From Terebella lapidaria (taxonomy: Eukaryota; Annelida; Polychaeta; Terebellida; Terebellidae), in assembly GCA_949152475.1 (NCBI GenBank), contig OX424564.1, forward strand, positions 25,108,165 through 25,172,164: a stretch of DNA of 64,000 bases, given 5' to 3'. The translations under genes and the position numbers were made by a program. A model generated the notes under the pieces. The model saw only the letters and a list, made by a program, of their open reading frames with translations. It was not told where the DNA came from and did no database searches. Positions 24,277-49,938 of this stretch are shown here, in pieces. Positions within the stretch are counted from its first letter, which is position 1; the number at the start of each line of letters is the position of its first letter.

Positions 24277-24292
24277 ATATATATATATATAC

Positions 24293-24332
<40 letters not shown>

Positions 24333-24353: not shown

Positions 24354-24363
24354 CAAGACTTCC

Positions 24364-24401
24364 GCACTTGACAAAGGATTCAACTCCGAAACCGGTCGTG
24401 C
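24364..24401 (+). other. hammerhead-ribozyme-like motif, PLE copy 1
   Basis: GCAC ... GGA-loop-TCC, GAAA, CCGGTC, GTGC: an outer GCAC/GTGC helix, a three-pair inner hairpin, the GAAA element and a GTC before the closing helix, in the order of a type I hammerhead with a minute stem III. The first core strand reads TTGACAAA instead of the canonical CUGANGA, so catalytic activity is doubtful. Confidence 0.35.
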
Positions 24402-24418
24402 AACAGGCAGAGTACATT

Positions 24419-24466
24419 GTGAGTAACCTCTTTTATATTGTTTTGTATTATTTTGTTGTGTTTTAG
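24419..24466 (+). other. putative 48-bp 5' intron of PLE copy 1
   Basis: GTGAGT at the left end and a T-rich TGTTTTAG at the right end. The same borders occur in copies 2 (28846-28893) and 3 (40594-40642). Small 5' introns are known from Penelope-type elements. No transcript evidence is available here. Confidence 0.4.
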
Positions 24467-24634
24467 ATACTGGTCAGATTATTGACCATATCTTTGCATT
24501 CAGGTTTCTTCAAACGTTTTGTTCTCATTTTATACAATTGTTTTTATTTTTCATAATTTTATCCTTTGGTTTTATCATTCAAATCAAACACGTTCTGGTT
24601 TTAATACTTTCAAAATTAATTGCTGAAACGTATC

Positions 24635-26344
24635 ATGGCTCTTTCTAAACCTCCTCACTTCCGTTCTTTTTACACTCTTCTTCAATGTTTTCACCACCTG
24701 TCACTAATGCTCCAGCAGTCTCAAGGCCAAGTTACCAGGGCTTTCAGTAAAAAACAACAACACCTGGATGACTTCATTAAACCTGCTTGTTCTGGTCCCC
24801 TAATCAAACAAAAAATCTCCAAAATTAATCAAAATTGGGTACAAAACGTGACCAAACATTTGGTGGAACACTATGAGAGCTCAATTCAAAACCTTTTGGC
24901 CGACATTTCCTCTTTAGGTTTATCAGATTCGGACATTGCAAATTCGGTAGCTCTCGTCATTCAGCAGGCTAAATCTCATTTCGGCAAAAAACTTCAGGCT
25001 TCCACCATCCAGAAATTCAAAACCTCTACTCTTCCAAATTCCCCTATTCCAAATTCTAACTCTCAATCAAAACCTCAGACTTGCGAGGTAAAAGGTCACA
25101 AACACCCACTTAGTAATTTCTTCCCATGTAATATATCCTATCGTGGTATGAGATTCCCTAGCCTTGAGCACATCTATCAGTATCACAAAGCCCGGTACCA
25201 TGACTGTCAACACCTAGCCAATCGGATCCTCAGGGCTCCCCATGCAGGAGTGGCCAAACGTTTGGCTAGTGAAATTCCTAGCCTGTCCCCATTCTGGCAT
25301 AAAAGTAAAAATGGAATCATGCGTCAACTTCTTCAAGTTAAGTTTAATTCTTGCAAATTGTTCCGTGACACTCTGATGGGTCTTCCTGAAGGGTGTCACA
25401 TTGTTCATCCAGTTCCTGACAGCCACTGGGGTGTTAACCGTCATGGTCAAGGCTCTAACTTCTTTGGCCGCCTCCTAATGGACCTAAAACGTGCCAACTC
25501 TCCTACTAACAATCCTAAACCCTCTCGCTCTTCACATCCATCTTCAAATAACACCCCTCCCTCTGTGTCCACTTCTAACCGCTTCCAACTCCTTGATACC
25601 CTCTCTAACCCTCCTTGTCTATCATCATCTGATGATTGGCCACCTCTCTCTCGCTCTTCTCCTGATAACCGCCTTAGTGCCACGCCCAAACGGCGTCCGC
25701 GCTCTCCTTCTTCTCCTGAACTCTCACCCTCCTCTCTACCCAAAGGCAAACGCACTCGCTTTGTCTCTCCTAAAAACTCTCCTAACACCACTTTCCATGT
25801 CTCTCCTTCCACTATCAGAGGACCCAAAACTCTTTGGGCCCTTCCTAAACTAACCTCCTCCACTGTCATCCTCGGCTCTTCTAACCTTTCTCGCATCACC
25901 AAATCCCCTGTCAGTGATATCCAAGTTGTGTCTTATCCTGGAGCTTTGTTCAACCATCTAAGAATGATGTTCACGGCCTGTAAAAAATCATTTGATGCCC
26001 CCCAAAACTTAATCTTAAGTGTAGGCCTGAACAATCGAAGCTCCAAACCAAGTGTTACTTCAATTCCAGAACTGAGGAATATGCTCAGCAGTGCTTTCCG
26101 AATCTTCCCCCACTCCAAAATTCTCATTCCAAAAATTAACTACTCAGACAATCTTCCGTCTGTAGAGAAACGCAACTTGGATATGATTAACAGGGCTTTG
26201 GATGACATGAGTTCACGTTTCAGCAATCTCACAGTTGTTAAACAGTTGGATCCAATCAAGTTTTCTACACAGACAGATAACATTCATTGGACTGAACAAA
26301 CGGCCAATGAAATGTTGAAATTCTGGCTCAGTCATTTAAACTAA
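24635..26344 (+). CDS. PLE ORF1, copy 1: NADAR domain plus SGNH-hydrolase-like domain
   Basis: A 569-residue protein from the ATG at 24635 (ATCATGG, good start context). Residues about 1-145 are helical and basic. Residues about 150-290 form a complete NADAR/YbiA-like domain: L-S-N-F-F-P, then P-S-L-E-H-I-Y-Q-Y-H-K-A with the conserved Glu, a central M-R-Q-L-L-Q-V-K-F segment, and the closing W-G-V-N-R-H-G-Q-G-S-N-F-F-G-R-L-L-M. Residues 295-400 are Ser/Pro-rich. From about 405 to the end an SGNH-like fold is suggested by I-L-G-S-S-N-L-S, L-S-V-G-L-N-N and D-N-I-H-W-T-E. NADAR domains act on ADP-ribose-type or related N-glycosidic bonds; SGNH domains are esterases, known from CR1-type LINE ORF1 proteins. 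The role in the element is unknown. The stop TAA (26342-26344) directly follows TTTAAAC. Confidence 0.88.
   Translation: MALSKPPHFRSFYTLLQCFHHLSLMLQQSQGQVTRAFSKKQQHLDDFIKPACSGPLIKQKISKINQNWVQNVTKHLVEHYESSIQNLLADISSLGLSDSDIANSVALVIQQAKSHFGKKLQASTIQKFKTSTLPNSPIPNSNSQSKPQTCEVKGHKHPLSNFFPCNISYRGMRFPSLEHIYQYHKARYHDCQHLANRILRAPHAGVAKRLASEIPSLSPFWHKSKNGIMRQLLQVKFNSCKLFRDTLMGLPEGCHIVHPVPDSHWGVNRHGQGSNFFGRLLMDLKRANSPTNNPKPSRSSHPSSNNTPPSVSTSNRFQLLDTLSNPPCLSSSDDWPPLSRSSPDNRLSATPKRRPRSPSSPELSPSSLPKGKRTRFVSPKNSPNTTFHVSPSTIRGPKTLWALPKLTSSTVILGSSNLSRITKSPVSDIQVVSYPGALFNHLRMMFTACKKSFDAPQNLILSVGLNNRSSKPSVTSIPELRNMLSSAFRIFPHSKILIPKINYSDNLPSVEKRNLDMINRALDDMSSRFSNLTVVKQLDPIKFSTQTDNIHWTEQTANEMLKFWLSHLN
26335..26341 (+). 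promoter_or_regulatory. putative -1 ribosomal frameshift site TTTAAAC, PLE copy 1
   Basis: In the ORF1 frame the heptamer reads T-TTA-AAC, followed by the stop TAA. Slipping back one base gives TTT-AAA and enters the ORF2 frame, which is open from here onward. No ATG lies near the start of ORF2 in this copy. Confidence 0.7.
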
Positions 26345-28624
26345 ATCATTCTGAGAGTCCACCGAACTCCAGTACGACTAATAATGTTGTAAACCTTTCC
26401 AAATTTACACTTTCGGACACACAAATCGCTCTTCTAAATCGTGGTTTGACATTTGTTCTCACACCCAAAATAACATTGGATCCAATTAAACAAGCTGTGC
26501 AAGATTTTGGTAGAAAACTCAAACTTCAAAATTATTTTTCTCACCGTCCAAATTCATTCACAAATAGATCAAAATTCACTCCACAATCTACCTGGACTCC
26601 ACCGAGTTCCATGATTGACAAGCCCGTTTTAGATTGCATTTCGGCAATATCTAAGGAAATTGAAAACTTGAAAATTCAACCAGAAACCAAAAACCTAACA
26701 AAAATGGAATATAAAACTATAAAGAATTTACAAAATAACGTAGACTTGGTAATTAAAAAAGCAGATAAAGGTAGTGCAGTCGTAATTATGGATAGGCAAA
26801 ATTATATTAATGAAGGCTTTCGTCAATTATACAATCCAGCTCATTACAGAGAAATTGACACTCCTCTTTACCTAGAAAATTCAGCAAAAATAACAAAAAT
26901 TTTAAAAGGATTACGCAATTCTGGATGCCTTTCTGAAAAAGTATTCCAATTTCTTTTACCACCAGAACGCCCTCGTCAAAGAAGATTTTATATGCTACCT
27001 AAAATTCATAAACCCAAAGACTCCTGGCCAATTCCAAATGTAATGCCTCCAGGGCGCCCAATTGTTTCGGACTGCAGCAGTGAATCTGAAAAAGTAGCTA
27101 TGTATATTGATTCATATATAAAAGATCAAGCAAATAAGCATCCGTCATATATCAAAAACACGTATGACTTTTTAGATAAAGTTAGAGGGCTTGAACTAGA
27201 TCCAAATTCTTTACTAATCACTTTAGATGTTGAAAGTATGTATACTAATATAAATCATGAAGAAGGTATCCAAGCAATTAAAAATGCATTCCCGACTCTG
27301 AAAAACAATGAACTATTCAAAGGTATAATAGAATTATTGGAAATTTCACTTAAATGTAATGACTTTGAATTTGACGGTAAGACATTCCTACAAGTTTCAG
27401 GCACAGCCATGGGTCAGAAATATGCACCTCATTATGCAGATATTTATATGGCTGAATTTGAAAAGCAAGCTTTACAAAAGTGTCCATTCAAACCAGATTG
27501 CTATTATAGGTATTTAGATGACATTTTCCTCATTTGGCCACACGGCACTTCCAAATTTAATCAGTTTCTCGAAATTTTCAATTCTCATAGGGCATCAATC
27601 AAGTTCAAAGCTGAAATTAGTACTGATTCAGTTAATTTTCTGGATACTACTTTGTTCAGGAGCAAAGAAAACACATTAGAAGCAAAAGTTTTCTTCAAAC
27701 CAACGGATACTCATCAGTTGCTGCATAAGCTCTCTTTTCATCCAAAGCACACTTATAAAGGACTAATCAAGTCCCAAGTTTTTCGATTTTTCCAAATTTG
27801 CTCCTATCCAGATGATGTTGAATTAGCTTGCCAAACATTATTCAAGGCACTTTCGAAACGTAACTATTCAAAACGTTGGCTTCGCAAAATCAAGAATGAA
27901 ACATTGAGAATTCTAAACAGTGAGGAAAGGCTAGGTGCTGATTTTCAGTTGCCCACTTCCAGCTCATCTGGCTCAAAACCTTGTAATTCTAGACTATGTC
28001 AAACATGTCATTTAGTTCCAAATTGTCAAAATTTCTCAGGATCAGTTTTTGAACAAACCTACTCAATCAACTCAGCTTTGGATTGCAACTCAGAAAATAT
28101 AATTTATCTATACACTTGTAAGCTTTGCGAAAAAACAATATGTAGGTGAAACCGGTAAATCACTCAAATTCAGAAACAATCGTCACCGTGCTGCAATAAC
28201 TAGCTGCAATGAGGAAAATGCATTATACAGTCATCTATCTAAATTTCACAGCAAAACTGAATTTTCCATCGATTGTTTTTCTCTTTTACCAATTGAACAG
28301 GTTTCCGATCTTGGTGATGAACTTTTAAACAAACAATGGCGACTTGAAAGGGAATATTGTTGGATTGATACTCTAGGCACTTTCGAACCTCATGGCCTCA
28401 ACGTTCAAAAATTTACAAAGTATGACCCTTTGAACAAAAGTAAAAATAAATTCGACCTGGTGTATATAGTACCCTTCTCAAAAACAGGTGCTCTTTCGGC
28501 CCAAATTGTTAAAAAGCATATGAAACAACTCAACAAAAATACTGATGGTGATATTAAAATAGCAACAGCTTACAAGAAGCATCAAAACCTTAAAGAACTT
28601 TTAGTCAGAAGCAGACTTAAATAA
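26335..28624 (+). pseudogene. PLE ORF2, copy 1: reverse transcriptase-GIY-YIG, one frameshift
   Basis: The frame is open from the slippery site, and no ATG is available: the first nominal start at 26446 is TTG. Penelope reverse transcriptase hallmarks are present: A-D-K-G-S-A-V-V, L-P-K-I-H-K-P, P-G-R-P-I-V-S, G-T-A-M-G-Q and the catalytic Y-L-D-D-I-F-L. The GIY-YIG endonuclease should follow at about 28095, but a run of six A (28130-28135) instead of the five in copies 2 and 3 shifts the frame inside it. The remaining C-terminal part is open to 28624. The lesion may be real or a homopolymer error. Confidence 0.9.
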
Positions 28625-28638
28625 TCCAACAAAATTTG

Positions 28639-28657
28639 TTCAATGTCGCTCATTGAA
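28639..28657 (+). other. 3' hairpin of PLE copy 1
   Basis: TTCAATG-TCGCT-CATTGAA, a perfect 7-bp stem just after the ORF2 stop. It is present in all three copies and is a candidate recognition structure for the reverse transcriptase. Confidence 0.6.
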
Positions 28658-28790
28658 TTTTTATTGCTGTTTTATGTTATGTGTTACTCTTACAATTATC
28701 TTGTGCCAGTGCATTTTTTATTCTCTCCAAAACACACACACACACACACACACATACACACACATATATATATACATACACAAGACTTCC

Positions 28791-28828
28791 GCACTTGACA
28801 AAGGATTCAACTCCGAAACCGGTCGTGC
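28791..28828 (+). other. hammerhead-ribozyme-like motif, PLE copy 2
   Basis: Same sequence as in copy 1 (GCAC/GTGC outer helix, GGA/TCC hairpin, GAAA). It lies at the junction between the two tandem copies, where the processing ribozyme of such arrays would be expected. The core is degenerate. Confidence 0.35.
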
Positions 28829-28845
28829 AACAGGCAGAGTACATT

Positions 28846-28893
28846 GTGAGTAACCTCTTTTATATTGTTTTGTATTATTTTGTTGTGTTTTAG
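28846..28893 (+). other. putative 48-bp 5' intron of PLE copy 2
   Basis: GTGAGT ... TGTTTTAG, identical borders and length to copy 1. Confidence 0.4.
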
Positions 28894-29061
28894 ATACTGG
28901 TCAGATTATTGACCATATCTTTGCATTCAGGTTTCTTCAAACGTTTTGTTCTCATTTTATACAATTGTTTTTATTTTTCATAATTTTATCCTTTGGTTTT
29001 ATCATTCAAATCAAACACGTTCTGGTTTTAATACTTTCAAAATTAATTGCTGAAACGTATC

Positions 29062-30771
29062 ATGGCTCTTTCTAAACCTCCTCACTTCCGTTCTTTTTAC
29101 ACTCTTCTTCAATGTTTTCACCACCTGTCACTAATGCTCCAGCAGTCTCAAGGCCAAGTTACCAGGGCTTTCAGTAAAAAACAACAACACCTGGATGACT
29201 TCATTAAACCTGCTTGTTCTGGTCCCCTAATCAAACAAAAAATCTCCAAAATTAATCAAAATTGGGTACAAAACGTGACCAAACATTTGGTGGAACACTA
29301 TGAGAGCTCAATTCAAAACCTTTTGGCCGACATTTCCTCTTTAGGTTTATCAGATTCGGACATTGCAAATTCGGTAGCTCTCGTCATTCAGCAGGCTAAA
29401 TCTCATTTCGGCAAAAAACTTCAGGCTTCCACCATCCAGAAATTCAAAACCTCTACTCTTCCAAATTCCCCTATTCCAAATTCTAACTCTCAATCAAAAC
29501 CTCAGACTTGCGAGGTAAAAGGTCACAAACACCCACTTAGTAATTTCTTCCCATGTAATATATCCTATCGTGGTATGAGATTCCCTAGCCTTGAGCACAT
29601 CTATCAGTATCACAAAGCCCGGTACCATGACTGTCAACACCTAGCCAATCGGATCCTCAGGGCTCCCCATGCAGGAGTGGCCAAACGTTTGGCTAGTGAA
29701 ATTCCTAGCCTGTCCCCATTCTGGCATAAAAGTAAAAATGGAATCATGCGTCAACTTCTTCAAGTTAAGTTTAATTCTTGCAAATTGTTCCGTGACACTC
29801 TGATGGGTCTTCCTGAAGGGTGTCACATTGTTCATCCAGTTCCTGACAGCCACTGGGGTGTTAACCGTCATGGTCAAGGCTCTAACTTCTTTGGCCGCCT
29901 CCTAATGGACCTAAAACGTGCCAACTCTCCTACTAACAATCCTAAACCCTCTCGCTCTTCACATCCATCTTCAAATAACACCCCTCCCTCTGTGTCCACT
30001 TCTAACCGCTTCCAACTCCTTGATACCCTCTCTAACCCTCCTTGTCTATCATCATCTGATGATTGGCCACCTCTCTCTCGCTCTTCTCCTGATAACCGCC
30101 TTAGTGCCACGCCCAAACGGCGTCCGCGCTCTCCTTCTTCTCCTGAACTCTCACCCTCCTCTCTACCCAAAGGCAAACGCACTCGCTTTGTCTCTCCTAA
30201 AAACTCTCCTAACACCACTTTCCATGTCTCTCCTTCCACTATCAGAGGACCCAAAACTCTTTGGGCCCTTCCTAAACTAACCTCCTCCACTGTCATCCTC
30301 GGCTCTTCTAACCTTTCTCGCATCACCAAATCCCCTGTCAGTGATATCCAAGTTGTGTCTTATCCTGGAGCTTTGTTCAACCATCTAAGAATGATGTTCA
30401 CGGCCTGTAAAAAATCATTTGATGCCCCCCAAAACTTAATCTTAAGTGTAGGCCTGAACAATCGAAGCTCCAAACCAAGTGTTACTTCAATTCCAGAACT
30501 GAGGAATATGCTCAGCAGTGCTTTCCGAATCTTCCCCCACTCCAAAATTCTCATTCCAAAAATTAACTACTCAGACAATCTTCCGTCTGTAGAGAAACGC
30601 AACTTGGATATGATTAACAGGGCTTTGGATGACATGAGTTCACGTTTCAGCAATCTCACAGTTGTTAAACAGTTGGATCCAATCAAGTTTTCTACACAGA
30701 CAGATAACATTCATTGGACTGAACAAACGGCCAATGAAATGTTGAAATTCTGGCTCAGTCATTTAAACTAA
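29062..30771 (+). CDS. PLE ORF1, copy 2: NADAR plus SGNH-like
   Basis: 569 residues from the ATG at 29062, with the same translated sequence as copy 1: N-terminal helical part, NADAR domain (about 150-290, with the conserved P-S-L-E-H and W-G-x-N boxes), Ser/Pro-rich linker and SGNH-like C-terminus. Complete identity with copy 1 over this ORF, while copy 3 differs at many sites, shows that copies 1 and 2 share a very recent origin or have been homogenised here. Confidence 0.88.
   Translation: MALSKPPHFRSFYTLLQCFHHLSLMLQQSQGQVTRAFSKKQQHLDDFIKPACSGPLIKQKISKINQNWVQNVTKHLVEHYESSIQNLLADISSLGLSDSDIANSVALVIQQAKSHFGKKLQASTIQKFKTSTLPNSPIPNSNSQSKPQTCEVKGHKHPLSNFFPCNISYRGMRFPSLEHIYQYHKARYHDCQHLANRILRAPHAGVAKRLASEIPSLSPFWHKSKNGIMRQLLQVKFNSCKLFRDTLMGLPEGCHIVHPVPDSHWGVNRHGQGSNFFGRLLMDLKRANSPTNNPKPSRSSHPSSNNTPPSVSTSNRFQLLDTLSNPPCLSSSDDWPPLSRSSPDNRLSATPKRRPRSPSSPELSPSSLPKGKRTRFVSPKNSPNTTFHVSPSTIRGPKTLWALPKLTSSTVILGSSNLSRITKSPVSDIQVVSYPGALFNHLRMMFTACKKSFDAPQNLILSVGLNNRSSKPSVTSIPELRNMLSSAFRIFPHSKILIPKINYSDNLPSVEKRNLDMINRALDDMSSRFSNLTVVKQLDPIKFSTQTDNIHWTEQTANEMLKFWLSHLN
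30762..30768 (+). promoter_or_regulatory. putative -1 ribosomal frameshift site TTTAAAC, PLE copy 2
   Basis: T-TTA-AAC followed by the ORF1 stop TAA (30769-30771), the same register as in copies 1 and 3. Confidence 0.7.
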
Positions 30772-33051
30772 ATCATTCTGAGAGTCCACCGAACTCCAGT
30801 ACGACTAATAATGTTGTAAACCTTTCCAAATTTACACTTTCGGACACACAAATCGCTCTTCTAAATCGTGGTTTGACATTTGTTCTCACACCCAAAATAA
30901 CATTGGATCCAATTAAACAAGCTGTGCAAGATTTTGGTAGAAAACTCAAACTTCAAAATTATTTTTCTCACCGTCCAAATTCATTCACAAATAGATCAAA
31001 ATTCACTCCACAATCTACCTGGACTCCACCGAGTTCCATGATTGACAAGCCCGTTTTAGATTGCATTTCGGCAATATCTAAGGAAATTGAAAACTTGAAA
31101 ATTCAACCAGAAACCAAAAACCTAACAAAAATGGAATATAAAACTATAAAGAATTTACAAAATAACGTAGACTTGGTAATTAAAAAAGCAGATAAAGGTA
31201 GTGCAGTCGTAATTATGGATAGGCAAAATTATATTAATGAAGGCTTTCGTCAATTATACAATCCAGCTCATTACAGAGAAATTGACACTCCTCTTTACCT
31301 AGAAAATTCAGCAAAAATAACAAAAATTTTAAAAGGATTACGCAATTCTGGATGCCTTTCTGAAAAAGTATTCCAATTTCTTTTACCACCAGAACGCCCT
31401 CGTCAAAGAAGATTTTATATGCTACCTAAAATTCATAAACCCAAAGACTCCTGGCCAATTCCAAATGTAATGCCTCCAGGGCGCCCAATTGTTTCGGACT
31501 GCAGCAGTGAATCTGAAAAAGTAGCTATGTATATTGATTCATATATAAAAGATCAAGCAAATAAGCATCCGTCATATATAAAAAACACGTATGACTTTTT
31601 AGATAAAGTTAGAGGGCTTGAACTAGATCCAAATTCTTTACTAATCACTTTAGATGTTGAAAGTATGTATACTAATATAAATCATGAAGAAGGTATCCAA
31701 GCAATTAAAAATGCATTCCCGACTTTGGCAAACAATGAACTATTCAAAGGTATAATAGAATTATTGGAAATTTCACTTAAATGTAATGACTTTGAATTTG
31801 ACGGTAAGACATTCCTACAAGTTTCAGGCACAGCCATGGGTCAGAAATATGCACCTCATTATGCAGATATTTATATGGCTGAATTTGAAAAGCAAGCTTT
31901 ACAAAAGTGTCCATTCAAACCAGATTGCTATTATAGGTATTTAGATGACATTTTCCTCATTTGGCCACATGGCATTTCCAAATTTCACCAGTTTCTCGAA
32001 ATTTTCAATTCTCATAGGGCATCAATCAACTTCAAAGCTGAAATTAGTACTGATTCAGTTAATTTTTTGGATACTACTTTGTTCAGGAGCAAAGAAAACA
32101 CATTAGAAGCAAAAGTTTTCTTCAAGCCAACGGATACTCATCAGTTGTTGCATAAGCTCTCTTTTCATCCAAAAACACACTTATAAAGGACTAATCAAGT
32201 CCCAAGTTTTTCGATTCTTCCAAATTTGCTCATATCCAGATGATGTTGAATCAGCTTGTCAAATATTATTCAAGGCACTTTCGAAACGTAACTATTCAAA
32301 ACGTTGGCTTCGCAAAATCAAGAATGAAACATTGAGAATTTTGAACAGTGAGGAAAGACTAGGTGCTGATTTTCAATTGCCCACTTCCAGCTCGTCTGGC
32401 TCAAAACCTTGTAATTCTAGACAATGTCAGACATGTCATTTAGTTCCAAATTGTCAAAATTTCTCGGGATCAGTTTTTGAACAGACCTACTCAATCAACT
32501 CAGCTTTGGATTGCAACTCAGAAAATATAATTTATCTATACACTTGTAAGCTTTGCGAAAAACAATATGTAGGTGAAACCGGTAAATCACTCAAATTCAG
32601 AAACAATCGTCACCGTGCTGCAATAACTAGCTGCAATGAGGAAAATGCATTATACAGTCATCTATCTAAATTTCACAGCAAAACTGAATTTTCCATTGAA
32701 TGTTTTTCTCTTTTACCAATTGAACAGGTTTCCGATCTTGGTGATGAACTTTTAAACAAACAATGGCGACTTGAAAGGGAATATTGTTGGATTGATACTC
32801 TAGGCACTTTCGAACCTCATGGCCTCAACGTTCAAAAATTTACAAAGTATGACCCTTTGAACAAAAGTAAAAATAAATTCGACATGGTGTATATAGTACC
32901 CTTCTCAAAAACAGGTACTCTTTCAGCCCAAATTGTTAAAAAGCATATGAAACAACTCAACAAAAATACTGATGGTGATATTAAAATAGCAACAGCTTAC
33001 AAGAAGCATCAAAATCTTAAAGAACTTTTAGTCAGAAGCAAACTTAAATAA
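30762..33051 (+). pseudogene. PLE ORF2, copy 2: reverse transcriptase-GIY-YIG, one frameshift
   Basis: The frame is open from the slippery site to 32186 and includes all the reverse transcriptase motifs, including Y-L-D-D-I-F. It then shifts at CCAAAAACACAC (about 32169-32180), where the other copies read CCAAAGCACAC, and is open again to 33051. The GIY-YIG region (Y-L-Y-T-C ... Q-Y-V-G-E-T-G) is intact in the second part at about 32535-32590. From about 31580 onward the copy accumulates differences from copies 1 and 3. Confidence 0.9.
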
Positions 33052-33065
33052 TCCAACAAAATTTG

Positions 33066-33084
33066 TTCAATGTCGCTCATTGAA
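33066..33084 (+). other. 3' hairpin of PLE copy 2
   Basis: TTCAATG-TCGCT-CATTGAA, same as in the other copies. Confidence 0.6.
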
Positions 33085-33276
33085 TTTTTATTGCTGTTTT
33101 ATGTTATGTGTTACTCTTACAATTATCTTGTGCCAGTGCATTTTTTATACTCTCCAAAACACATACACACATATATACACATACATACATACACACACAT
33201 GCATATATACATACACGTACATATATAGATCACTTAAACTTAATGATAAGTATGGCATTTAAGAAATAACGTCAAA

Positions 33277-36381: not shown

Positions 36382-36423
36382 CAAACAGTTGTCGCCGTGT
36401 GTCCTCCTCAAAGACCGGCCCAC

Positions 36424-37980: not shown

Positions 37981-37987
37981 TCACAGC

Positions 37988-38212
37988 ATAAAAATGAGCT
38001 AGCAATCATGTTTACATGGTATCATCACGCCACAAAATGAGATAGCAATCACGTTGACATGGTATAATCACGCCACAAAGACATGGTATAATCACGCCAC
38101 AAAAATGAGATAACAATCATGTTGACATGGTATAATCACGCCACAAAAATGAGATAACAATCATGTTGACATGGTATAATCACGCCACAAAAAATGAGAT
38201 AGCAATCATGTT
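37988..38212. repeat. minisatellite of about 45-bp units, left copy
   Basis: Repeats of AAAATGAGATAACAATCATG followed by TTGACATGGTATAATCACGCCAC, about four full and two partial units, including one short unit (GACATGGTATAATCACGCCACAAA). A second copy is at 49714-49938. Confidence 0.9.
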
Positions 38213-38529
38213 TACCTTTACCGGCTACGAGCATTATGGTAAATGCTCACATTAACCCAATCCTAGATACTGGATAAATATTGAACTCAAACCTAAGTTA
38301 AACCTAACCTAACTCAAACCTATATTATATTGAACTCGAACCTTGTTGTGCGGCGTTAGCCGTACTATATCTGTTAGTGTAATTTTGACCCCATGGTACT
38401 ACTGGTGAGGAACTTGTCCATGCGTGGACTTATTGCTACCGAATTAAGTCAGCGATGACATTATCCATATTTTTCATGTCACAATCTCAGATTACAACAA
38501 AGTTAAGTAGCAAATATTGAACAAAGAAA

Positions 38530-38940
38530 ACATACACCTTTGTCATTTGTGGAAAGTGCAACTAAAACCCATTTTGGCAAGAATAATGGACGAATCGACA
38601 AACAAATGCGAGTAATAATCAATTTTCGCATGGACAAGCTCTGCACCAGTATTGGATGTATTATGGTAGTGTAAGACCATCTACGAGAATTGTTCTCTGT
38701 GAGAGGGAAGTAGAGAGTTATTACAATACGAGTTCGAGTTACAATACGATCCGAGTTCATTGTTTCATATTGTTATCAAACTAATCAATAGGCTTTAAGT
38801 TGATTTGCAAATATTGTGTGAGTGAAAACACACACCATAGTCCTTTGTGGAAAGTTCAACCAAAACACATTTGGGCAAGAATAATGGGCAACTCAACAAA
38901 AGAGCAGGTGAGAATCAATTTACCCATGGACATCAAAATA
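38530..38940. repeat. imperfect direct repeat of about 110 bp, two copies 300 bp apart (left segment)
   Basis: 38535-38645 and 38830-38938 share CTTTGT-ATTTGTGGAAAGTGCAAC-like, GGCAAGAATAATGG and AATCAATTTTCGCATGGACA-like blocks. They look like two diverged copies of one repeat. The pair recurs at 50261-50664. Confidence 0.7.
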
Positions 38941-39870
38941 TTCGACAGGTTGTCATAACGTTCAGGTTCACAATTAGAATTTTTATATCACATGGAAACA
39001 AGACCCACAATATTTTGTTTGGTTGTTTAACCAAGAAATGTGTTTTCTGTCTACTTATCCTTGATTTTTTTCGTGTTCACTCAGCCTCGAGTACTGGTTC
39101 TACTCTCCTTTGTCCCTGTGGCCGCACACGTAACCTCAAGTTCTGCTGTTGTGATGCTTGTTATCAGCCAGTGTTAATATAACGACCATCAATTATCTTA
39201 AAAACGAATCTGTAAAGTATTAGGTTGCTGAATGATTGGTTCGTAGCTTTCACAGTTAAACACCCGATTGGTTCCTGCAAGATTGTAATCCTCGACAGTC
39301 ACTAATACAGCCACTTTGGGGACGCTTATCGACTTGCACAGAATCGAAATGTGGCCGCTGCTTGTACATGCCATCATCATGGCAACAACAAAAAATCTGA
39401 CTCGGGAGGTTTGGGACGACCGCATGTGGACGCGAACCAAAACATTATTTTTTTTTGCCTAAACATTTTGTTATTTCCACAAGGTACACCGCACTTGAAA
39501 CCATTTATTTCCATTTACTAAACAAGAAAATGATTTTATTTTACATCTAAATGGATGACACGTAATATCTTTCAAGATGTCACATCTCGCAGACATCCTG
39601 TTATGCTTTATTTCAAGGTTTACTACCATTCCCATCGCCGAGGGTAATCGTGGCTCCCATCAGCCGACACAGAACATCAGAACTGATCAGAAAAGACAGG
39701 ACGTCGACAGGGTTGTAAAAAAAAAGCCTTATGTCTATTGATGGAGTGCCTTCGGTGTAATAGAATTAAGTCTTTAGTCGAAAACAACAACAGATGCCAA
39801 TTTCTCAATGATGACATTTTTCTGAATAACCGCGTCACTAAAAATCGCCACCAAGCTAGGAAGTGCTACT
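38941..39870. other. no recognisable gene (left segment)
   Basis: Short reading frames only. The same sequence recurs at 50667-51596. Confidence 0.4.
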
Positions 39871-40522
39871 CACTGTGGTGAGACTGGATGCACTAACGAT
39901 CGTTAGTGCATCCCGCAATGGCGAACCCACTCGCGGTTCGTTTAATTTTCTTCATTTTCCCGATAATTACGATTGTGATCGATACACACATACATCTGCT
40001 GATTTTATGCGCACGAAACAACCGTTCGTTGCAAATACGTGGCGATTTATGTTGGTTTGAGCATGAAAAAAACTCGTCTGAAAAAAAGCCGAAAGATTCC
40101 CTAACGATTGATTTTGTAAAATCAAAGATTCCCTAACGAACATGTGAAGATTCTTTAATGATCTTTTCTTTATTAATTCAAATCTACGTTATTTAAATGT
40201 TAAAGTGAAATAAAGTACCAATTGACATGTATTGATGTGTATAGATGCTCTTCTAATACAGATTTCCTATTTTTGATGTGTTATTCGCTAATTTATGTCG
40301 CATAAATCAACGAATTCACAATGGTGTATGATATGGACGTATTACAATATACACGTATTAGGCCTGTTAGGGAATCTCACTTTTGTCGTTGGTGAATCTT
40401 ATCGCTAATTCTTTTCCTCAACATATCTAAACAAAGAAGCGTGATCTGCTTGAACTAACTACGCATGTCTTTGACCAAAACACTAAGCTTCCTTCAGATA
40501 TCCATTTATCACAAATGGACCT
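39871..40522. mobile_element. CACTA-type non-autonomous element, truncated left copy
   Basis: It begins with CACTGTGGTGA and contains the perfect 28-bp palindrome at 39886-39913. It is cut off at 40522 by the start of PLE copy 3. The complete version is at 51597-52350. Confidence 0.75.
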
Positions 40523-40538
40523 TCAGCACTTGACTTCA

Positions 40539-40576
40539 GCACTTGACAAAGGATTCAACTCCGAAACCGGTCGTGC
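40539..40576 (+). other. hammerhead-ribozyme-like motif, PLE copy 3
   Basis: Same motif as in copies 1 and 2, conserved base for base from GCAC to GTGC although surrounding bases differ. That suggests a constraint or very recent common origin. Confidence 0.35.
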
Positions 40577-40593
40577 AACAGGCAGAGTACATT

Positions 40594-40642
40594 GTGAGTA
40601 ACCGTTTTTGATATTGTTTTGTATTATTTTGTTTTGTTTTAG
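40594..40642 (+). other. putative 49-bp 5' intron of PLE copy 3
   Basis: GTGAGT ... TGTTTTAG. The inside differs slightly from copies 1 and 2 (one base longer), with conserved borders. Confidence 0.4.
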
Positions 40643-40808
40643 ATCTGGTCAGATTATTGACCATATCCTTGCATTCAGGCTTCTTCAAACGTTTTGTTTC
40701 CATTTTATACAATTGTTTTTATTTTTATAATTTTATCCTTCGGTTTTATCATCCAAATCAAATTCGTTCTGGTTTTAATACTTTCAAAATTAATTGCTGA
40801 AACGTATC

Positions 40809-42530
40809 ATGGCTCTTTCCAAACCTCCTCACTTCCGTTCTTTTTACACTCTTCTTCAATGCTTTCACCATCTTTCACTAATGCTCCAGCAGTCTCAAGG
40901 CCAAGTCACCAGGGCTTTCAGTAAAAAACAACAACACCTGGATGACTTCATTAAACCTGCTTGTTCTGGTCCTCTGATCAAACAAAAAATCTCCAAAATC
41001 AATCAAAATTGGGTACAAAACGTGACCGAACAATTGGTGGAACACTACGAGAGCTCAATTCAAAACCTTTTGGCCCACATTTCCTCTTTAGGTTTATCTG
41101 ATTCGGACATTGCAAATTCGGTAGCTCTCGTCATTCAGCAGGCTAAATCTCATTTCGGCAAAAAACTTCAGGCTTCCACCATCCAGAAATTCAAAAGCTC
41201 CACTCTTCCAAATTCCCCTATTCCAAATTCTAACTCTCAATCCAAACCTCAGACTTGTGAGGTTAAAGGTCACAAACACCCACTTAGTAATTTCTTCCCA
41301 TGTAATATATCCTATCGTGGTATGAGATTCCCTAGCCTTGAGCACATCTATCAGTATCACAAAGCCCGGTACCATGACTGTCAACACCTAGCCAATCGGA
41401 TCCTTAGGGCTCCCCATGCAGGAGTGGCTAAACGTTTGGCTAGTGAAATCCCTAGCCTGTCCCCATTCTGGCATAAAAGTAAAAATGGAATCATGCGTCA
41501 ACTTCTCCAAGTTAAGTTTAATTCTTGCAAATTGTTCCGTGACACTCTGATGGGCCTACCTGAAGGGTGTCACATTGTCCATCCAGTTCCTGACAGCCAC
41601 TGGGGTGTTAATCGTCATGGTCAAGGCTCTAACTTCTTTGGCCGCCTCCTAATGGACCTAAAACGTGCCAACTCTCCTACTAACAATCCTAAACCCTCTC
41701 GCTCTTCACCTCCATTTTCAAATAACACCCTCCCTAAAACCCTTCCCTCTGTGTCCACTTCTAACCGCTTCCAACTCCTGGACACTCTCTCTAATCCTCC
41801 TTGCCTCTCATCATCTGATGATTGGCCACCTCTCTCTCGCTCTTCTCCTGATAACCGCCTTAGTGCCACGCCCAAACGGCGTCCGCGCTCTCCTTCTTCT
41901 CCTGAACTCTCACCCTCCTCTCTACCTAAAGGCAAACGCTCTCGCTTTGCCTCTCCTAAAAACTCTCCTAACACCACTTTCCATGTCTCTCCTTCCACTA
42001 TCAGAGGGCCCAAAACTCTTTGGGCCCTTCCTAGACTAACCTCCTCCACTGTCGTCCTCGGCTCTTCTAACCTCTCTCGCATCACCAAATCCCCCGTCAG
42101 TGATATCCAAGTTGTGTCTTATCCTGGAGCTTTGTTCAACCATCTCAGAATGATGTTCACGGCCTGTAAAAAATCATTTGATGCCCCCAAAAACTTAATC
42201 TTAAGTGTTGGCCTGAACAATCGAAGCTCCAAACCAAGTGTTACCTCAATTCCAGAGCTGAGGAATATGCTCAGCAGTGCTTTCCGAATCTTCCCCCACT
42301 CCAAAATTCTTATTCCAAAAATTAACTACTCAGACAATCTTCCGTCTGTAGAGAAACGCAACTTGGATATGATTAACAGGGCTTTGGATGACATGAGTTC
42401 ACGTTTCAGCAATCTCACAGTTGTTAAACAATTGGATCCAATCAGGTTCTCTACACAGCCAGATAACATTCATTGGACTGAACAAACGGCCAATGAAATG
42501 TTGAAATGCTGGCTCAGTCATTTAAACTAA
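40809..42530 (+). CDS. PLE ORF1, copy 3: NADAR plus SGNH-like
   Basis: 573 residues from the ATG at 40809. Same architecture as copies 1 and 2, with scattered substitutions and a four-residue insertion in the Ser/Pro-rich linker (T-L-P-K). The NADAR boxes (L-S-N-F-F-P, P-S-L-E-H-I-Y-Q, W-G-V-N-R-H-G-Q-G) and the SGNH-like boxes (L-G-S-S-N-L, S-V-G-L-N-N, D-N-I-H-W-T-E) are unchanged. Changes avoiding these boxes suggest that both domains matter to the element. The stop TAA is at 42528-42530, directly after the slippery heptamer. Confidence 0.9.
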   Translation: MALSKPPHFRSFYTLLQCFHHLSLMLQQSQGQVTRAFSKKQQHLDDFIKPACSGPLIKQKISKINQNWVQNVTEQLVEHYESSIQNLLAHISSLGLSDSDIANSVALVIQQAKSHFGKKLQASTIQKFKSSTLPNSPIPNSNSQSKPQTCEVKGHKHPLSNFFPCNISYRGMRFPSLEHIYQYHKARYHDCQHLANRILRAPHAGVAKRLASEIPSLSPFWHKSKNGIMRQLLQVKFNSCKLFRDTLMGLPEGCHIVHPVPDSHWGVNRHGQGSNFFGRLLMDLKRANSPTNNPKPSRSSPPFSNNTLPKTLPSVSTSNRFQLLDTLSNPPCLSSSDDWPPLSRSSPDNRLSATPKRRPRSPSSPELSPSSLPKGKRSRFASPKNSPNTTFHVSPSTIRGPKTLWALPRLTSSTVVLGSSNLSRITKSPVSDIQVVSYPGALFNHLRMMFTACKKSFDAPKNLILSVGLNNRSSKPSVTSIPELRNMLSSAFRIFPHSKILIPKINYSDNLPSVEKRNLDMINRALDDMSSRFSNLTVVKQLDPIRFSTQPDNIHWTEQTANEMLKCWLSHLN

Positions 42531-44809
42531 ATCATTCTGAGAGTCCACCGAACTCCAGTACGACTAATAATGTTGTAAACCTTTCCAAATTTACACTTTC
42601 GGACACACAAATCACTCTTCTAAATCGTGGTTTGACTTTTGTTCCCACGCCCAAAATAACATTGGATCCAATTGAACAAGCTGTGCAAGATTTTGGTAGA
42701 AAACTCAAACTTCAAAATTATTTTTCTCACCGTCCAAATTCATTTACAAATAGATCAAAATTCACTCCAAAATCTACCTGGACTCCACCCAATTCCATGA
42801 TTGACAAGCCTGTTTTAGATTGCATTTCGGCAATATCTAAAGAAATTGAAAATTTGAAAATTCAACCAGAAACCAAAAACCTAACGAAAATGGAATATAA
42901 AACTATAAAGGATTTACAAAATAACGTAGACTTGGTAATCAAAAAAGCAGATAAAGGTAGTGCAGTCGTAATTATGGATAGGCAAAATTATATTAATGAA
43001 GGCCTTCGTCAATTATACAATCCAGCTCATTACCGAGAAATTGACACTCCTCTTTACTTAGAAAATTCAGAAAAAATAACAAAAATTTTAAAAGGATTAC
43101 GCAGTTGTGGATGCCTTTCTGAAAAAGTATTCCAATTTCTTTTACCACCAGAACGCCCTCGTCAAAGAAGATTTTATATGCTACCTAAAATTCATAAACC
43201 CAAAGACTCCTGGCCAATTCCAAATGTAATGCCTCCAGGGCGCCCAATTGTTTCGGACTGCAGCAGTGAATCTGAAAAAGTAGCTATGTATATTGATTCA
43301 TATATAAAAGATCAAGCAAATAAGCATCCGTCATATATCAAAAACACGTATGACTTTTTAGATAAAGTTAGAGGGCTTGAACTAGATCCAAATTCTTTAC
43401 TAATCACTTTAGATGTTGAAAGTATGTATACTAATATAAATCATGAAGAAGGTATCCAAGCAATTAAAAATGCATTCCCGACTCTGAAAAACAATGAACT
43501 ATTCAAAGGTATAATAGAATTATTGGAAATTTCACTTAAATGTAATGACTTTGAATTTGACGGTAAGACATTCCTACAAGTTTCAGGCACAGCCATGGGT
43601 CAGAAATATGCACCTCATTATGCAGATATTTATATGGCTGAATTTGAAAAGCAAGCTTTACAAAAGTGTCCATTCAAACCAGATTGCTATTATAGGTATT
43701 TAGATGACATTTTCCTCATTTGGCCACACGGCACTTCCAAATTTAATCAGTTTCTCGAAATTTTCAATTCTCATAGGGCATCAATCAAGTTCAAAGCTGA
43801 AATTAGTACTGATTCAGTTAATTTTCTGGATACTACTTTGTTCAGGAGCAAAGAAAACACATTAGAAGCAAAAGTTTTCTTCAAACCAACGGATACTCAT
43901 CAGTTGCTGCATAAGCTCTCTTTTCATCCAAAGCACACTTATAAAGGACTAATCAAGTCCCAAGTTTTTCGATTTTTCCAAATTTGCTCCTATCCAGATG
44001 ATGTTGAATTAGCTTGCCAAACATTATTCAAGGCACTTTCGAAACGTAACTATTCAAAACGTTGGCTTCGCAAAATCAAGAATGAAACATTGAGAATTCT
44101 AAACAGTGAGGAAAGGCTAGGTGCTGATTTTCAGTTGCCCACTTCCAGCTCATCTGGCTCAAAACCTTGTAATTCTAGACTATGTCAAACATGTCATTTA
44201 GTTCCAAATTGTCAAAATTTCTCAGGATCAGTTTTTGAACAAACCTACTCAATCAACTCAGCTTTGGATTGCAACTCAGAAAATATAATTTATCTATACA
44301 CTTGTAAGCTTTGCGAAAAACAATATGTAGGTGAAACCGGTAAATCACTCAAATTCAGAAACAATCGTCACCGTGCTGCAATAACTAGCTGCAATGAGGA
44401 AAATGCATTATACAGTCATCTATCTAAATTTCACAGCAAAACTGAATTTTCCATCGATTGTTTTTCTCTTTTACCAATTGAACAGGTTTCCGATCTTGGT
44501 GATGAACTTTTAAACAAACAATGGCGACTTGAAAGGGAATATTGTTGGATTGATACTTTAGGCACTTTCGAGCCTCATGGCCTCAACGTTCAAAAATTTA
44601 CAAAGTATGACCCTTTGAACAAAAGTAAAAATAAATTCGACCTGGTGTATATAGTACCCTTCTCAAAAACAGGTGCTCTTTCGGCCCAAATTGTTAAAAA
44701 GCATATGAAACAACTCAACAAAAATACTGATGGTGATATTAAAATAGCAACAGCTTACAAGAAGCATCAAAACCTTAAAGAACTTTTAGTCAGAAGCAGA
44801 CTTAAATAA
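42506..44809 (+). CDS. PLE ORF2, copy 3: reverse transcriptase with C-terminal GIY-YIG endonuclease, intact
   Basis: 767 codons, counted from the copy-specific ATG; I infer entry by frameshifting at 42521. Penelope reverse transcriptase motifs, numbered from 42506: A-D-K-G-S-A-V-V near 147, L-P-K-I-H-K-P near 226, P-G-R-P-I-V-S near 245, G-T-A-M-G-Q-K-Y-A-P near 362, Y-L-D-D-I-F-L near 395. A Cys cluster (C-N-S-R-L-C-Q-T-C-H, then C) lies near 555-570. The GIY-YIG core Y-L-Y-T-C-K-L-C-E-K-Q-Y-V-G-E-T-G is near 593, followed by R-N-N-R-H-R. Such proteins prime reverse transcription at a nick made by the endonuclease. This is the only copy with the entire protein open. Confidence 0.95.
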   Translation: MLAQSFKLNHSESPPNSSTTNNVVNLSKFTLSDTQITLLNRGLTFVPTPKITLDPIEQAVQDFGRKLKLQNYFSHRPNSFTNRSKFTPKSTWTPPNSMIDKPVLDCISAISKEIENLKIQPETKNLTKMEYKTIKDLQNNVDLVIKKADKGSAVVIMDRQNYINEGLRQLYNPAHYREIDTPLYLENSEKITKILKGLRSCGCLSEKVFQFLLPPERPRQRRFYMLPKIHKPKDSWPIPNVMPPGRPIVSDCSSESEKVAMYIDSYIKDQANKHPSYIKNTYDFLDKVRGLELDPNSLLITLDVESMYTNINHEEGIQAIKNAFPTLKNNELFKGIIELLEISLKCNDFEFDGKTFLQVSGTAMGQKYAPHYADIYMAEFEKQALQKCPFKPDCYYRYLDDIFLIWPHGTSKFNQFLEIFNSHRASIKFKAEISTDSVNFLDTTLFRSKENTLEAKVFFKPTDTHQLLHKLSFHPKHTYKGLIKSQVFRFFQICSYPDDVELACQTLFKALSKRNYSKRWLRKIKNETLRILNSEERLGADFQLPTSSSSGSKPCNSRLCQTCHLVPNCQNFSGSVFEQTYSINSALDCNSENIIYLYTCKLCEKQYVGETGKSLKFRNNRHRAAITSCNEENALYSHLSKFHSKTEFSIDCFSLLPIEQVSDLGDELLNKQWRLEREYCWIDTLGTFEPHGLNVQKFTKYDPLNKSKNKFDLVYIVPFSKTGALSAQIVKKHMKQLNKNTDGDIKIATAYKKHQNLKELLVRSRLK
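42521..42527 (+). promoter_or_regulatory. putative -1 ribosomal frameshift site TTTAAAC, PLE copy 3
   Basis: In the ORF1 frame it reads T-TTA-AAC-TAA; in the -1 frame TTT-AAA-CTA continues into ORF2. Thirteen bases after the heptamer a weak GAGT/ACTC hairpin could form. This copy also has an ATG at 42506 in the ORF2 frame created by a substitution absent from copies 1 and 2, so that ATG is not an ancestral start. Confidence 0.72.
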
Positions 44810-44823
44810 TCCAACAAAATTTG

Positions 44824-44842
44824 TTCAATGTCGCTCATTGAA
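44824..44842 (+). other. 3' hairpin of PLE copy 3
   Basis: TTCAATG-TCGCT-CATTGAA, the same 7-bp stem as in copies 1 and 2. Confidence 0.6.
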
Positions 44843-45002
44843 TTTTTATTGCTGTTTTATGTTATGTGTTACTCTTACAATTATCTTGTGCCAGTGCATT
44901 TTTTATTCTCTCCAAAACACACACATGCATATATACATACACGTACATATATAGATCACTTAAACTTAATGATAAGTATGGCATTTAAGAAATAACGTCA
45001 AA

Positions 45003-48000
45003 TTAGTAGTTACATTGTTTGCAAAAAGTATTTTCACAAGTTACATTATTAGAGTACAAGTCTATAAAATGATGCCTAAGCAGGGTGCTAAATCTCGTCC
45101 TGTTAATTTCGTCTTTAAATTTGACTGGGAAATTATTCCAAACATTGGGGATACTATAATACACATTCGATTTGGACCAGTTAGTTCTTGGTTTTGGTAA
45201 GGATATTTGATAATTTGCAGTACTTCTAGTGACTATTGAACTAATTCGATTTAAAGGGTAAAAATTATTGAAGGCTTCTGGTAGGCGATTATTTGTGTAA
45301 TCATGTGCAAATTTCATAATGTTGTATAAATACAGGTCCCGTAGTTTAAGAATATTTAATTGTTTAAAAATCGGTTCAGTATGTGCTCTGAATGTACTAT
45401 TTGTGATTATTCGCACAGATTTTTTCTGAATAGCGAATAATTTGGGAAGTGAATTTGAATTTCCCCATGCTATGATTCCATATGAAATTCGGCTATGTAT
45501 TAACATGTAGTAAAGTGTTTTAAGAGCCGAAAGTGGTAAAATTCTTTTAACTTTATTGAGACAATATAATGTATATGATATTTGTTTACGAAGGTTGTCA
45601 ATATGTAGTTTCCATGTCAAATTTTCATCAATATGTAAGCCTAGAAATTTTATGCTTTCAGAATTATTATTATATCCACATTGCTCAATGGCTTCACCGT
45701 TGATAAAAATATTGATAGAATTGGTTTTGCTGGGCGAAAATACCATGAATTTAGTTTTATTGGTGTTCATGAGAAGCTTATTCTCACAAAGCCATGTATA
45801 TACTGATTTTAACTCATCATTAATTGTGTTCGATAATTCGACAGGATCACTGCTAGAATAATAGACTGTGGTGTCGTCGGCAAAAGAGAGGACTTTTAGT
45901 TTCGTAGAATAATGCAAATCATTAATATATATCAGAAAAAGAAGTGGACCCAATATTGATCCCTGTGGGACGCCACATGTAATATCAGAACTTGGGGAGA
46001 ATGAAGATTTAAATTCGGTAAATTGTTTTCTTCCGGACAAGTAATTCGAAAACCATAATATTGATGAACCTCTCACACCATAATGCTCCAACTTCGTTAG
46101 TAAAATATCATGGGATATAGTATCAAATGCTTTGCTCAAATCCAAGAAAACAGCTGCAGTAATATCTTTAGTAGGTTTGTCATTCGCATTAGTTATATCT
46201 CTTATTAGTTTAATAATTGGGTGTATCGTTGAGTGTTTTTTCCGGAAGCCAAATTGGTTCTCAGTAAGGATTTTGTTCGTATTCAGATAGGAAGTGAGTC
46301 TTTTATACATAATTTTTTCCAATACTTTAGAAAATGAAGGTAGTAAACGGATAGGTCTGTAGTTATCAAAAATACGCTCATCACCAGATTTGAACACAGG
46401 TATAATTTTCGCTATTTTCATCTTTTCAGGTATAACACCAGTTGAAAAAGATAAGTTGAAAATATGGGCTAAGGGTTGTGTTATATACTCAATTGTTTGT
46501 TTCACTAATTTGGTACTGATATCATCATGTCCTGAGCTTTGTTTAGGTTTCAAGGAATTAACAACATCATGTATTTCGCTTGCACAAGTGGGGTTTATAA
46601 AAAACGAATTGGGAAATTGTCCTGTCAAGTGTCGAGAGAATTTGGAGTTGACAGGAGTAATTTTGCTAACTATGTTCATACCGATTTTAGAAAAATAATT
46701 ATTGAAACTGTCTGCGATATCTTTGCAATTTGTAATGAGAGTATTGTTTACATAAAAGTTGTCAGATAAGCTCTGTTTATCTTTTGTGTTGATAAGTTCT
46801 CTGAGGATTTTCCAAGAACGTTTTGAATCATCTTTGCTCTCATTCAGTAGATTTGTATAATATGTCTTCATAGCTAATCGTGATACTCTATTGAAAATTG
46901 AACAATACAATTTATAGCGAGATATGTTATTCGGTGTTGGCTTTTTGAATTTTGTTTTCAGCAACTTACGTTGGTGTAAAGAGGAGACTAATAATCCACT
47001 GGTGAACCATGGATCACGCTTTACATATTTAGATGTACACTTTATCAACTTCAAAGGAAAACACACGTCATATGCTGACTTGTATAATTCCATGAATTGA
47101 TTATAGGAGTCGTTTGCACAGGAAGAATCGAATACAATTGAATAATCCATGACACGTAGAATCGAATTGAATCGCATAATGTTATTCTGACTGAAAGATC
47201 GTAGGTATTTATACACTGGCTTATTTTTTTCCTTAGCATTATCGACAATTGTAAACGTCGCAAAATGATCTGATACATCAGAGATAATTATTCCTGATTT
47301 GCAGGGCCTGTCAATGGCGTTGGAAAAAATGTGATCAATAATGGTTGCGGAGTATTCCGTAATTCTTGTAGGTTTTGTTATCAAAGGTAATAGGCCACTA
47401 CTGTACATGTCATTTATAAAATCATTCGTTTTATTATTGTATTCAAATTTGAGAAGATCTATATTGAAATCTCCCATCAGGAATAATATTTTATTTTCTT
47501 TACTCACATGTTCTATAATATTCTGCATGGTTTCCATAAATACATTTATATCGGCCTTGGGTAGAGTATTTGGTCGGTATATGTTACCAATAACTATATT
47601 CTTTTTATTCTGGAATGTAATTTCAATGAATAAAGTCTCAATGATATGTGGGGTAAAGAAAGATAAATCATGCCTCACTGTATAATTAAGAGTGTCTTTG
47701 ACGAACAATCCGACTCCACCTCTACCATCATCGTTTTCAGGTCGAATCTTGAATTCTAATTTGGAGTATCCGTTTAGTCTAAATTCCATGATATTATTAA
47801 TATTGAAGATTTCTGAAAGACCTAGTATATCGAACGAAAATTTATCAGAGCTAAGATCCGCCACTAAGGATTTGAAAGAAATCCAATTTGCAGTTAAACT
47901 ACGACAGTTTAGTGAAAAATGGGACAAGCAAGTCTTACATGTTCTATTTTCTGCCATATTGATAAAGTCATCAGGGGCAAAGTATTCACAGGTATTCATA

Positions 48001-48107: not shown

Positions 48108-48149
48108 CAAACAGTTGTCGCCGTGTGTCCTCCTCAAAGACCGGCCCAC

Positions 48150-49706: not shown

Positions 49707-49713
49707 TCACAGC

Positions 49714-49938
49714 ATAAAAATGAGCTAGCAATCATGTTTACATGGTATCATCACGCCACAAAATGAGATAGCAATCACGTTGACATGGTATAATCACGCC
49801 ACAAAGACATGGTATAATCACGCCACAAAAATGAGATAACAATCATGTTGACATGGTATAATCACGCCACAAAAATGAGATAACAATCATGTTGACATGG
49901 TATAATCACGCCACAAAAAATGAGATAGCAATCATGTT
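49714..49938. repeat. minisatellite of about 45-bp units, right copy
   Basis: Same array, with the same number and order of variant units as at 37988-38212. Equal array length in both copies means the duplication is younger than the usual pace of minisatellite length change. Confidence 0.9.

Follow-up and report, generated by a model that had tools for sequence, protein, structure and literature searches.

A Penelope-like retroelement of Terebella lapidaria with an ORF1 that joins a predicted helical domain, a NADAR domain and an SGNH hydrolase-like domain

Results

The window, a stretch of 64,000 nucleotides of Terebella lapidaria DNA, contains three copies of one retroelement on the forward strand, each made up of ORF1 and an overlapping ORF2, as seen by self-BLAST and in the list of open reading frames. 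Copy 1 (24357..28770) and copy 2 (28784..33216) form a head-to-tail tandem and match at 98.9%, and copy 3 (40532..44953) matches copy 1 at 97.4%, the match ending at 40532 on the 5′ side; all these limits are self-BLAST match ends and approximate. ORF1 occupies 24635..26344 in copy 1 (569 aa), 29062..30771 in copy 2, where its DNA is identical to that of copy 1, and 40809..42530 in copy 3 (573 aa). In copy 3, ORF2 is a single open frame of 767 aa (42506..44809) whose start overlaps the final 25 nt of ORF1. It is divided between two stop-to-stop frames in copy 1 (26311..28624; 26311-28149 and 28103-28624) and in copy 2 (30738..33051; 30738-32186 and 32107-33051). A 34-nt 5′ motif on the same strand is identical in the three copies (40540..40573, 24365-24398 and 28792-28825), giving three exact matches against a mean of 0.00 in shuffles. 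Self-BLAST found no repeat pair of at least 120 nt around a single copy, indicating that the element has no LTRs. Hammerhead ribozymes are a known, though not universal, trait of Penelope-like terminal repeats; none was detected at the gathering threshold in the window, nor among the matches with E ≤ 10 in 22500-45200.

The ORF2 product matched the reverse transcriptase family RVT_1 (9.7e-12, 45.5 bits against a cut-off of 29.6) and, C-terminal to this, the GIY-YIG family at 18.8 bits, below the cut-off of 22.6. A relative of ORF2 with 45% identity, P0099, exceeded the same GIY-YIG cut-off with 27.6 bits. Because the domain order, reverse transcriptase followed by a GIY-YIG-like endonuclease, and the tandem arrangement of copies both fit a Penelope-like element, we assign the element to this class.

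CA/TA simple repeats lie at the ends of the Penelope-like copies (24270-24350, 28731-28781 and 33156-33226), and either insertion into simple repeats or growth of such repeats is possible. The window also contains an 11.7 kb tandem duplication (28784-40525 and 40532-52252). The Penelope-like element that heads each block differs by 1-4% per 300 bases, and the blocks from ~33272 onward, which comprise a LINE and a spacer, showed one mismatch over the full 300-base steps listed. The duplication looks like the result of unequal exchange through the Penelope-like element, or an assembly effect. The LINE is a non-LTR retrotransposon with a 1050-aa ORF for endonuclease and reverse transcriptase domains on the reverse strand (33277-36429 and 45003-48155), open in both blocks. 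Elsewhere in the window are a Ty3/Gypsy-like element with protease, reverse transcriptase, RNase H and integrase domains (13300-20376, reverse strand), a further segment to its right that carries RNase H domains (57298-58167, reverse strand), and a 758-aa ORF on the forward strand (2094-4370) that had no Pfam match at E 0.01.

ORF1 of copy 3 begins with a helical domain predicted by AlphaFold2 (40833..41204, residues 9-132), followed by a NADAR domain (41244..41684, residues ~146-292) with E178, K185, W221, H258, D262 and W265. A basic, disordered linker (41685..41978, residues ~293-390) leads to an SGNH hydrolase-like domain (41979..42527, residues ~391-573), in which S420, G440, N470, D552 and H555 are present. 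The helical domain had a mean pLDDT of 92.3 when modelled alone and 85-96 per ten-residue block, from residue 11, in the model of the full ORF1; a structure search with it gave no clear match. Most linker blocks had pLDDT values of 35-53. The predicted protein is basic, with a pI of 10.2 for the whole of ORF1, 10.0 for the NADAR part and 11.5 for residues 293-395. HMM matches, structure matches and exact coordinates confirmed the proposal of the earlier note that the ORF1 at 40809..42530 encodes a NADAR domain and then an SGNH-like domain. All three domains are predicted folds of high confidence that recur in relatives, and the NADAR and SGNH domains are additionally backed by family or profile matches. 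We regard this three-domain anatomy, within one mobile Penelope-like unit, as practically certain.

Relatives of ORF1 were collected with one single-sequence protein search, which returned 25 proteins. The alignment consisted of the window protein and 24 of them (25 rows); the protein left out, P0027, is an L1/Tx1-like ORF1, typed by eye, with a NADAR match of 98.1 bits, and in a NADAR tree it grouped with five phage rows (89/93, not starred). The helical N-terminal domain was found in 24 of the 25 rows, P0010 being the exception, and the stored sequences of P0008 and P0009 begin within it. NADAR was matched at E 0.01 or better in 17 rows, including relatives as distant as 28-35% identity. The other eight rows lack NADAR and have the N-terminal and SGNH domains connected by a linker. 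Because these rows keep both flanking domains, either NADAR entered ORF1 between two parts that are older, or some lines have lost it. The earlier note had named a missing HMM or structural match to NADAR, or absence of ORF1 from every related element, as findings that would refute its reading; NADAR was matched by both methods, and an ORF1 of this kind recurred in the 24 other aligned proteins, of which 16 have NADAR. Similarity to the NADAR part of P0012 was also seen in NADAR-coding segments of two viral contigs (L007 2133-2513, 36% identical; L008 6001-6381, 34%).

The NADAR family model PF08719 matched ORF1 residues 155-286 (6.3e-16, 59.5 bits against a cut-off of 35.1), and the riboflavin equivalog model TIGR02464 scored 62.3 bits, below its cut-off of 73.7. 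In sequence searches of the PDB, the single ORF1 recovered YbiA (2b3w, 4.3e-10) and the Phytophthora NADAR 8bau (1.3e-5); with the 25-row profile the values were 8e-20 and 7e-14, respectively. The predicted structure of the domain showed a YbiA-like fold that matched both proteins, and viral structure matches included NADAR proteins of phages and giant viruses. Active-site positions were mapped from the 8bau residues named in PMC11543638. E43 and K50 of 8bau correspond to E178 and K185, and these two residues, as well as W221, H258 and W265, were kept in all 17 NADAR-bearing rows, while D262 was kept in 15. The equivalent of R79 (8bau numbering) is Ser in the window protein and variable among the relatives.

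The catalytic Glu/Asp was missing from every NADAR-bearing row: columns 257 and 258 were acidic in 0/17, with Glu in 0/17. In an ungapped alignment, V257 takes the catalytic place with the His adjoining it, and the relatives have Val, Ser, Thr, Ala, Ile or Leu at position 257. When the 17-row profile was aligned by hhalign, H258 stood opposite the Glu of an L1/Tx1-like and phage NADAR profile and opposite the His of T4 gp30.3. The gp30.3 family model matched P0016 weakly (E 0.008, 16.4 bits against a cut-off of 36). In the NADAR superfamily, the catalytic residue of the last strand is Glu, Asp or His (PMC11125620). The better reading of these alignments is a His-type NADAR in which H258 likely replaces the catalytic Glu/Asp.

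An SGNH fold was found by structure match for the C-terminal domain, and the window protein carries the catalytic S420, G440, N470 and H555, plus D552. Pfam Lipase_GDSL_2 had no match in the window protein at E 1. With E 0.01 as the limit it matched 15 of the 25 rows; scores were read for four of them and ran from 15.9 to 22.0, short of the cut-off of 32.9. With the 25-row profile, the best SGNH entry of the PDB by sequence was 4c1b, the LINE ORF1 esterase of ZfL2-1 (1.3e-9). A single relative, P0018, matched it at E 0.13, and it was absent from the matches of the window protein alone at E 1. Across the 25 rows, the catalytic Ser was present in 20, Gly in 22, Asn in 24 (one gap) and His in 21 (one gap). 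Ser was replaced by Glu in P0011, Gly in P0012 and P0017, Thr in P0025 and Gln in P0026. Of the 24 rows long enough to include the His, 21 keep it and P0011, P0012 and P0026 do not; the block-II Gly was also gone in P0025 and P0026, and P0017 ends inside the domain. In four of the five Ser-less rows the remainder of the SGNH domain still aligned, whereas P0017 breaks off. Because the Ser-less rows form two separate supported groups (P0011/P0012/P0017 and P0025/P0026), SGNH activity was probably lost twice among the relatives. All five NADAR residues were intact in P0011, P0012 and P0017.

The match between copies 1 and 3 begins at the 5′ motif and spans both ORFs, and ORF1 and ORF2 thus sit in one mobile unit. 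We also compared the 25 ORF1 proteins with 120 of 4013 ORF2 relatives. For five ORF1 proteins, the longest contig was equal in size to, and from the same source as, that of an ORF2 relative, compared with a mean of 0.6 and a maximum of 4 in 600 shifted controls; four further ORF1/ORF2 contig pairs differed in size by one base. Contig size agreement alone is no more than suggestive of linkage. An ORF2 start could be read in a shifted frame over the last codons of ORF1 in the window and in two of the five linked pairs; the other three gave no frame-overlap match, and their stored ORF2 seems to begin further downstream. In a scan of the first 45 residues, 17 of 121 ORF2 starts were compatible with some ORF1 end, 16 of them at an FKL motif, whereas 3 of 82,160 positions inside ORF2 were compatible in a control that used six ORF1 ends rather than the 24 of the first scan, the rows in both being related to each other. 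The frame overlap between the …LN-stop end of ORF1 and the …FKL of ORF2 seems to be common to these elements.

A dN/dS comparison across copies, suggested in the earlier note, found purifying selection between the two source lineages that the copies represent. Between copies 1 and 3, the whole of ORF1 had 39 synonymous and 15 nonsynonymous changes (omega 0.107, p 2e-14). The NADAR domain had 11 synonymous and no nonsynonymous changes (p 5e-8 against the neutral expectation), and it differed from the rest of ORF1 (Fisher p 0.024). The corresponding counts were 11/4 for the N-terminal part (p 3e-5), 7/5 for the linker (p 0.02) and 10/6 for the SGNH domain (p 6e-4); the compared part of ORF2 had 11/11 (omega 0.26). 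NADAR therefore changed under purifying selection between the two copies. The synonymous divergence of copies 1 and 3 was 0.107 in ORF1 and 0.030 in the compared part of ORF2, as if the two halves of the element had different histories.

Discussion

Both ingredients of this ORF1 are already in print: NADAR in retroelements (PMC12477816) and SGNH ORF1s in Penelope-like elements since 2013 (PMC3905857). The earlier note had cited CR1-like LINEs as carriers of SGNH ORF1s, which is true but incomplete, as Penelope-like elements have them too (Schneider et al. 2013, PMC3905857). Its authors find esterases of transposons in the CR1, RTEX and Penelope-like groups and propose a single origin for them, and our finding of 4c1b as the nearest solved SGNH by sequence fits this proposal; a later study instead found that the esterases of LINEs and those of Athena elements stand apart (Rodriguez et al. 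2017, PMC5408684). As in the window element, the SGNH ORF1s of CR1/L2/RTEX LINEs and of RepBase Penelope-like elements lie upstream of the reverse transcriptase ORF and have the SGNH domain at the C-terminus, with basic sequence ahead of the esterase (PMC3905857). The ORF1 described here differs by a predicted five-helix N-terminal domain instead of, or beyond, the short coiled coil and by the NADAR in mid-protein, seen in 17 of 25 rows; its partner ORF2 is of the reverse transcriptase plus GIY-YIG-like type. Bdelloid Athena/Terminon elements likewise place a GDSL/SGNH ORF on a Penelope-like element but are giant, endonuclease-deficient and furnished with many ORFs (PMC5408684). None of the terms NADAR, YbiA and DUF1768 appears in the available text of PMC3905857 or PMC5408684, nor does NADAR in that of PMC6431247.

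NADAR domains have been reported in Gypsy Pol of Ectocarpus and in ORF1 of Tx1 LINEs of Crassostrea gigas (PMC12477816). These share with the window element the capture of NADAR by a retroelement but belong to other element classes; P0027 looks like such an ORF1. SGNH, GDSL and esterase are absent from the available text of that paper, and in its accessible passages the Penelope-like (Chlamys) elements are not linked to NADAR. In the accessible portions of the open-access literature searched, we found no Penelope-like element tied to NADAR, which is no proof of absence. Our results extend the list of NADAR-carrying retroelements to the Penelope-like elements and link the domain to a position in their ORF1 protein that is conserved and under selection.

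NADARs are reported to cleave ADP-ribose off guanine, both in DNA and in RNA, and to be inactive on phosphate ends (PMC11543638, PMC11125620, PMC11833690), and all those tested in PMC11833690 stripped ADP-ribose from guanosine in RNA. The NADAR of E. coli C7 cannot do without the matching Lys, is inactive with Gln in place of the matching Glu, and lost its efficient activity when the acid at the catalytic place (D171) was removed (PMC11543638). YbiA of E. coli and Phytophthora 8bau share their fold with the ORF1 domain and, together with T4 gp30.3, the same pocket Glu and Lys. YbiA and 8bau use Glu; the ORF1 domain has a His near or at the catalytic place, as does gp30.3; all three are stand-alone proteins, unlike ORF1. 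A phage NADAR, named T4 in PMC11833690, acted on guanosine-ADP-ribose in vitro (PMC11125620).

Our best explanation, which we hold tentatively and at somewhat less than even confidence, is that a Penelope-like ORF1 protein packages element RNA and carries its own eraser for guanine ADP-ribose. RNA packaging is a natural guess, because the protein is basic and stands in the position of LINE ORF1 proteins or Gag. NADAR would hydrolyse ADP-ribose from guanine of the element RNA, of the RNA/cDNA hybrid or of the target DNA, and reverse transcription would thereby be kept unblocked by marks of host ADP-ribosyltransferases. We lean modestly toward a domain that is active on ADP-ribosyl-guanine or a close N-glycoside; its use to protect the nucleic acid of the element is a possibility to which we would give slightly less than an even chance. 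Of the reading in the earlier note, the domain assignments hold, while the reversal of nucleic-acid ADP-ribosylation is still conjectural and is weakened by the absence of the catalytic Glu/Asp.

The enzyme reading gains from the intact pocket residues, from purifying selection, from published work in which NADARs act on ADP-ribosylated guanosine in RNA and from the rows P0011, P0012 and P0017, in which NADAR residues stay although the SGNH Ser is gone. It is weakened by the missing catalytic Glu/Asp, for which His is the likely stand-in. Several further points count against it: E88A, a change of the conserved Glu to Ala in the E. coli C7 NADAR, had a minor effect only in vitro (PMC11543638), the R79 equivalent is variable, and neither the phage NADAR nor YbiA, which is likewise active in vitro, protected cells from DarT1 (PMC11125620). 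Both proteins were also weaker on RNA than the C7 NADAR (PMC11833690). In addition, 8 of the 25 rows dispense with NADAR.

The same missing acid, in all 17 rows, would also fit a binding module that has no enzymatic role and holds ADP-ribose-modified or plain nucleic acid for assembly or localisation. The basic pI of the NADAR part is in keeping with this, and the SGNH domain of the same protein offers a likeness: 5 of 25 rows no longer have its Ser, and its His is gone from 3 of the 24 rows that extend so far, with the rest of the domain still aligning in 4 of the 5 Ser-less rows, and such degenerate domains may act as binding modules in some relatives. However, E178 and K185 are invariant, no NADAR row decays as SGNH does, and the His-type phage NADAR is active in vitro (PMC11833690, PMC11125620), so that we consider a pure binding role unlikely.

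Less probable still is a YbiA-like clean-up N-glycosidase that would aid reverse transcription by removing damaged nucleotides or small N-glycosides rather than by defence against ADP-ribosylation. It would agree with the action of E. coli YbiA on riboflavin intermediates (PMC11543638). The TIGR02464 match is strong, but it stays short of the equivalog cut-off. Animals are not known to make riboflavin, and Penelope-like elements with a C-terminal GIY-YIG are known almost exclusively from animals, which counts against a riboflavin role here. The idea of the earlier note that NADAR counters a PARP-type defence, which would mean acting against ADP-ribosylation of host proteins or immune factors and not against marks on the element's own nucleic acid, recalls the proposal that phage NADARs act against host ADP-ribosyltransferases (PMC11125620), but that proposal concerns phage DNA. 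The reported ADP-ribosylhydrolase activity of NADARs is on guanine of DNA and RNA, with phosphate ends inactive (PMC11543638, PMC11833690, PMC11125620), and we judge this role quite improbable. That NADAR is a passenger, fused by chance in one source element and without a part in transposition, would agree with the eight rows that lack it but is very improbable given its retention down to 28-35% identity and the purifying selection between copies.

If the NADAR of ORF1 is active, as the eraser explanation holds, the hosts of these elements are predicted to have an ADP-ribosyltransferase that modifies guanine in the nucleic acid of retroelements. Guanine-specific DNA ADP-ribosylation is reported from butterflies and six edible clams (PMC11209040), and for retroelement NADARs a role in the processing of RNA intermediates of transposition has been suggested (PMC12477816). 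More broadly, and in our estimate unlikely, invertebrate cells may use ADP-ribosylation of guanine in RNA or cDNA as a weapon against RNA-based parasites, and parasites unrelated to one another, namely Penelope-like elements, Tx1 LINEs, Gypsy elements and some RNA viruses, may each have gained a NADAR to reverse these marks. The Penelope-like ORF1 product would then combine a particle protein and an eraser in one chain, and would be to animals what NADARs that face DarT-type toxins are to phages. The ORF1 NADAR offers a simple test system of one domain, one substrate and a few point mutants. Surveys of NADAR genes in invertebrates may partly count transposon proteins.
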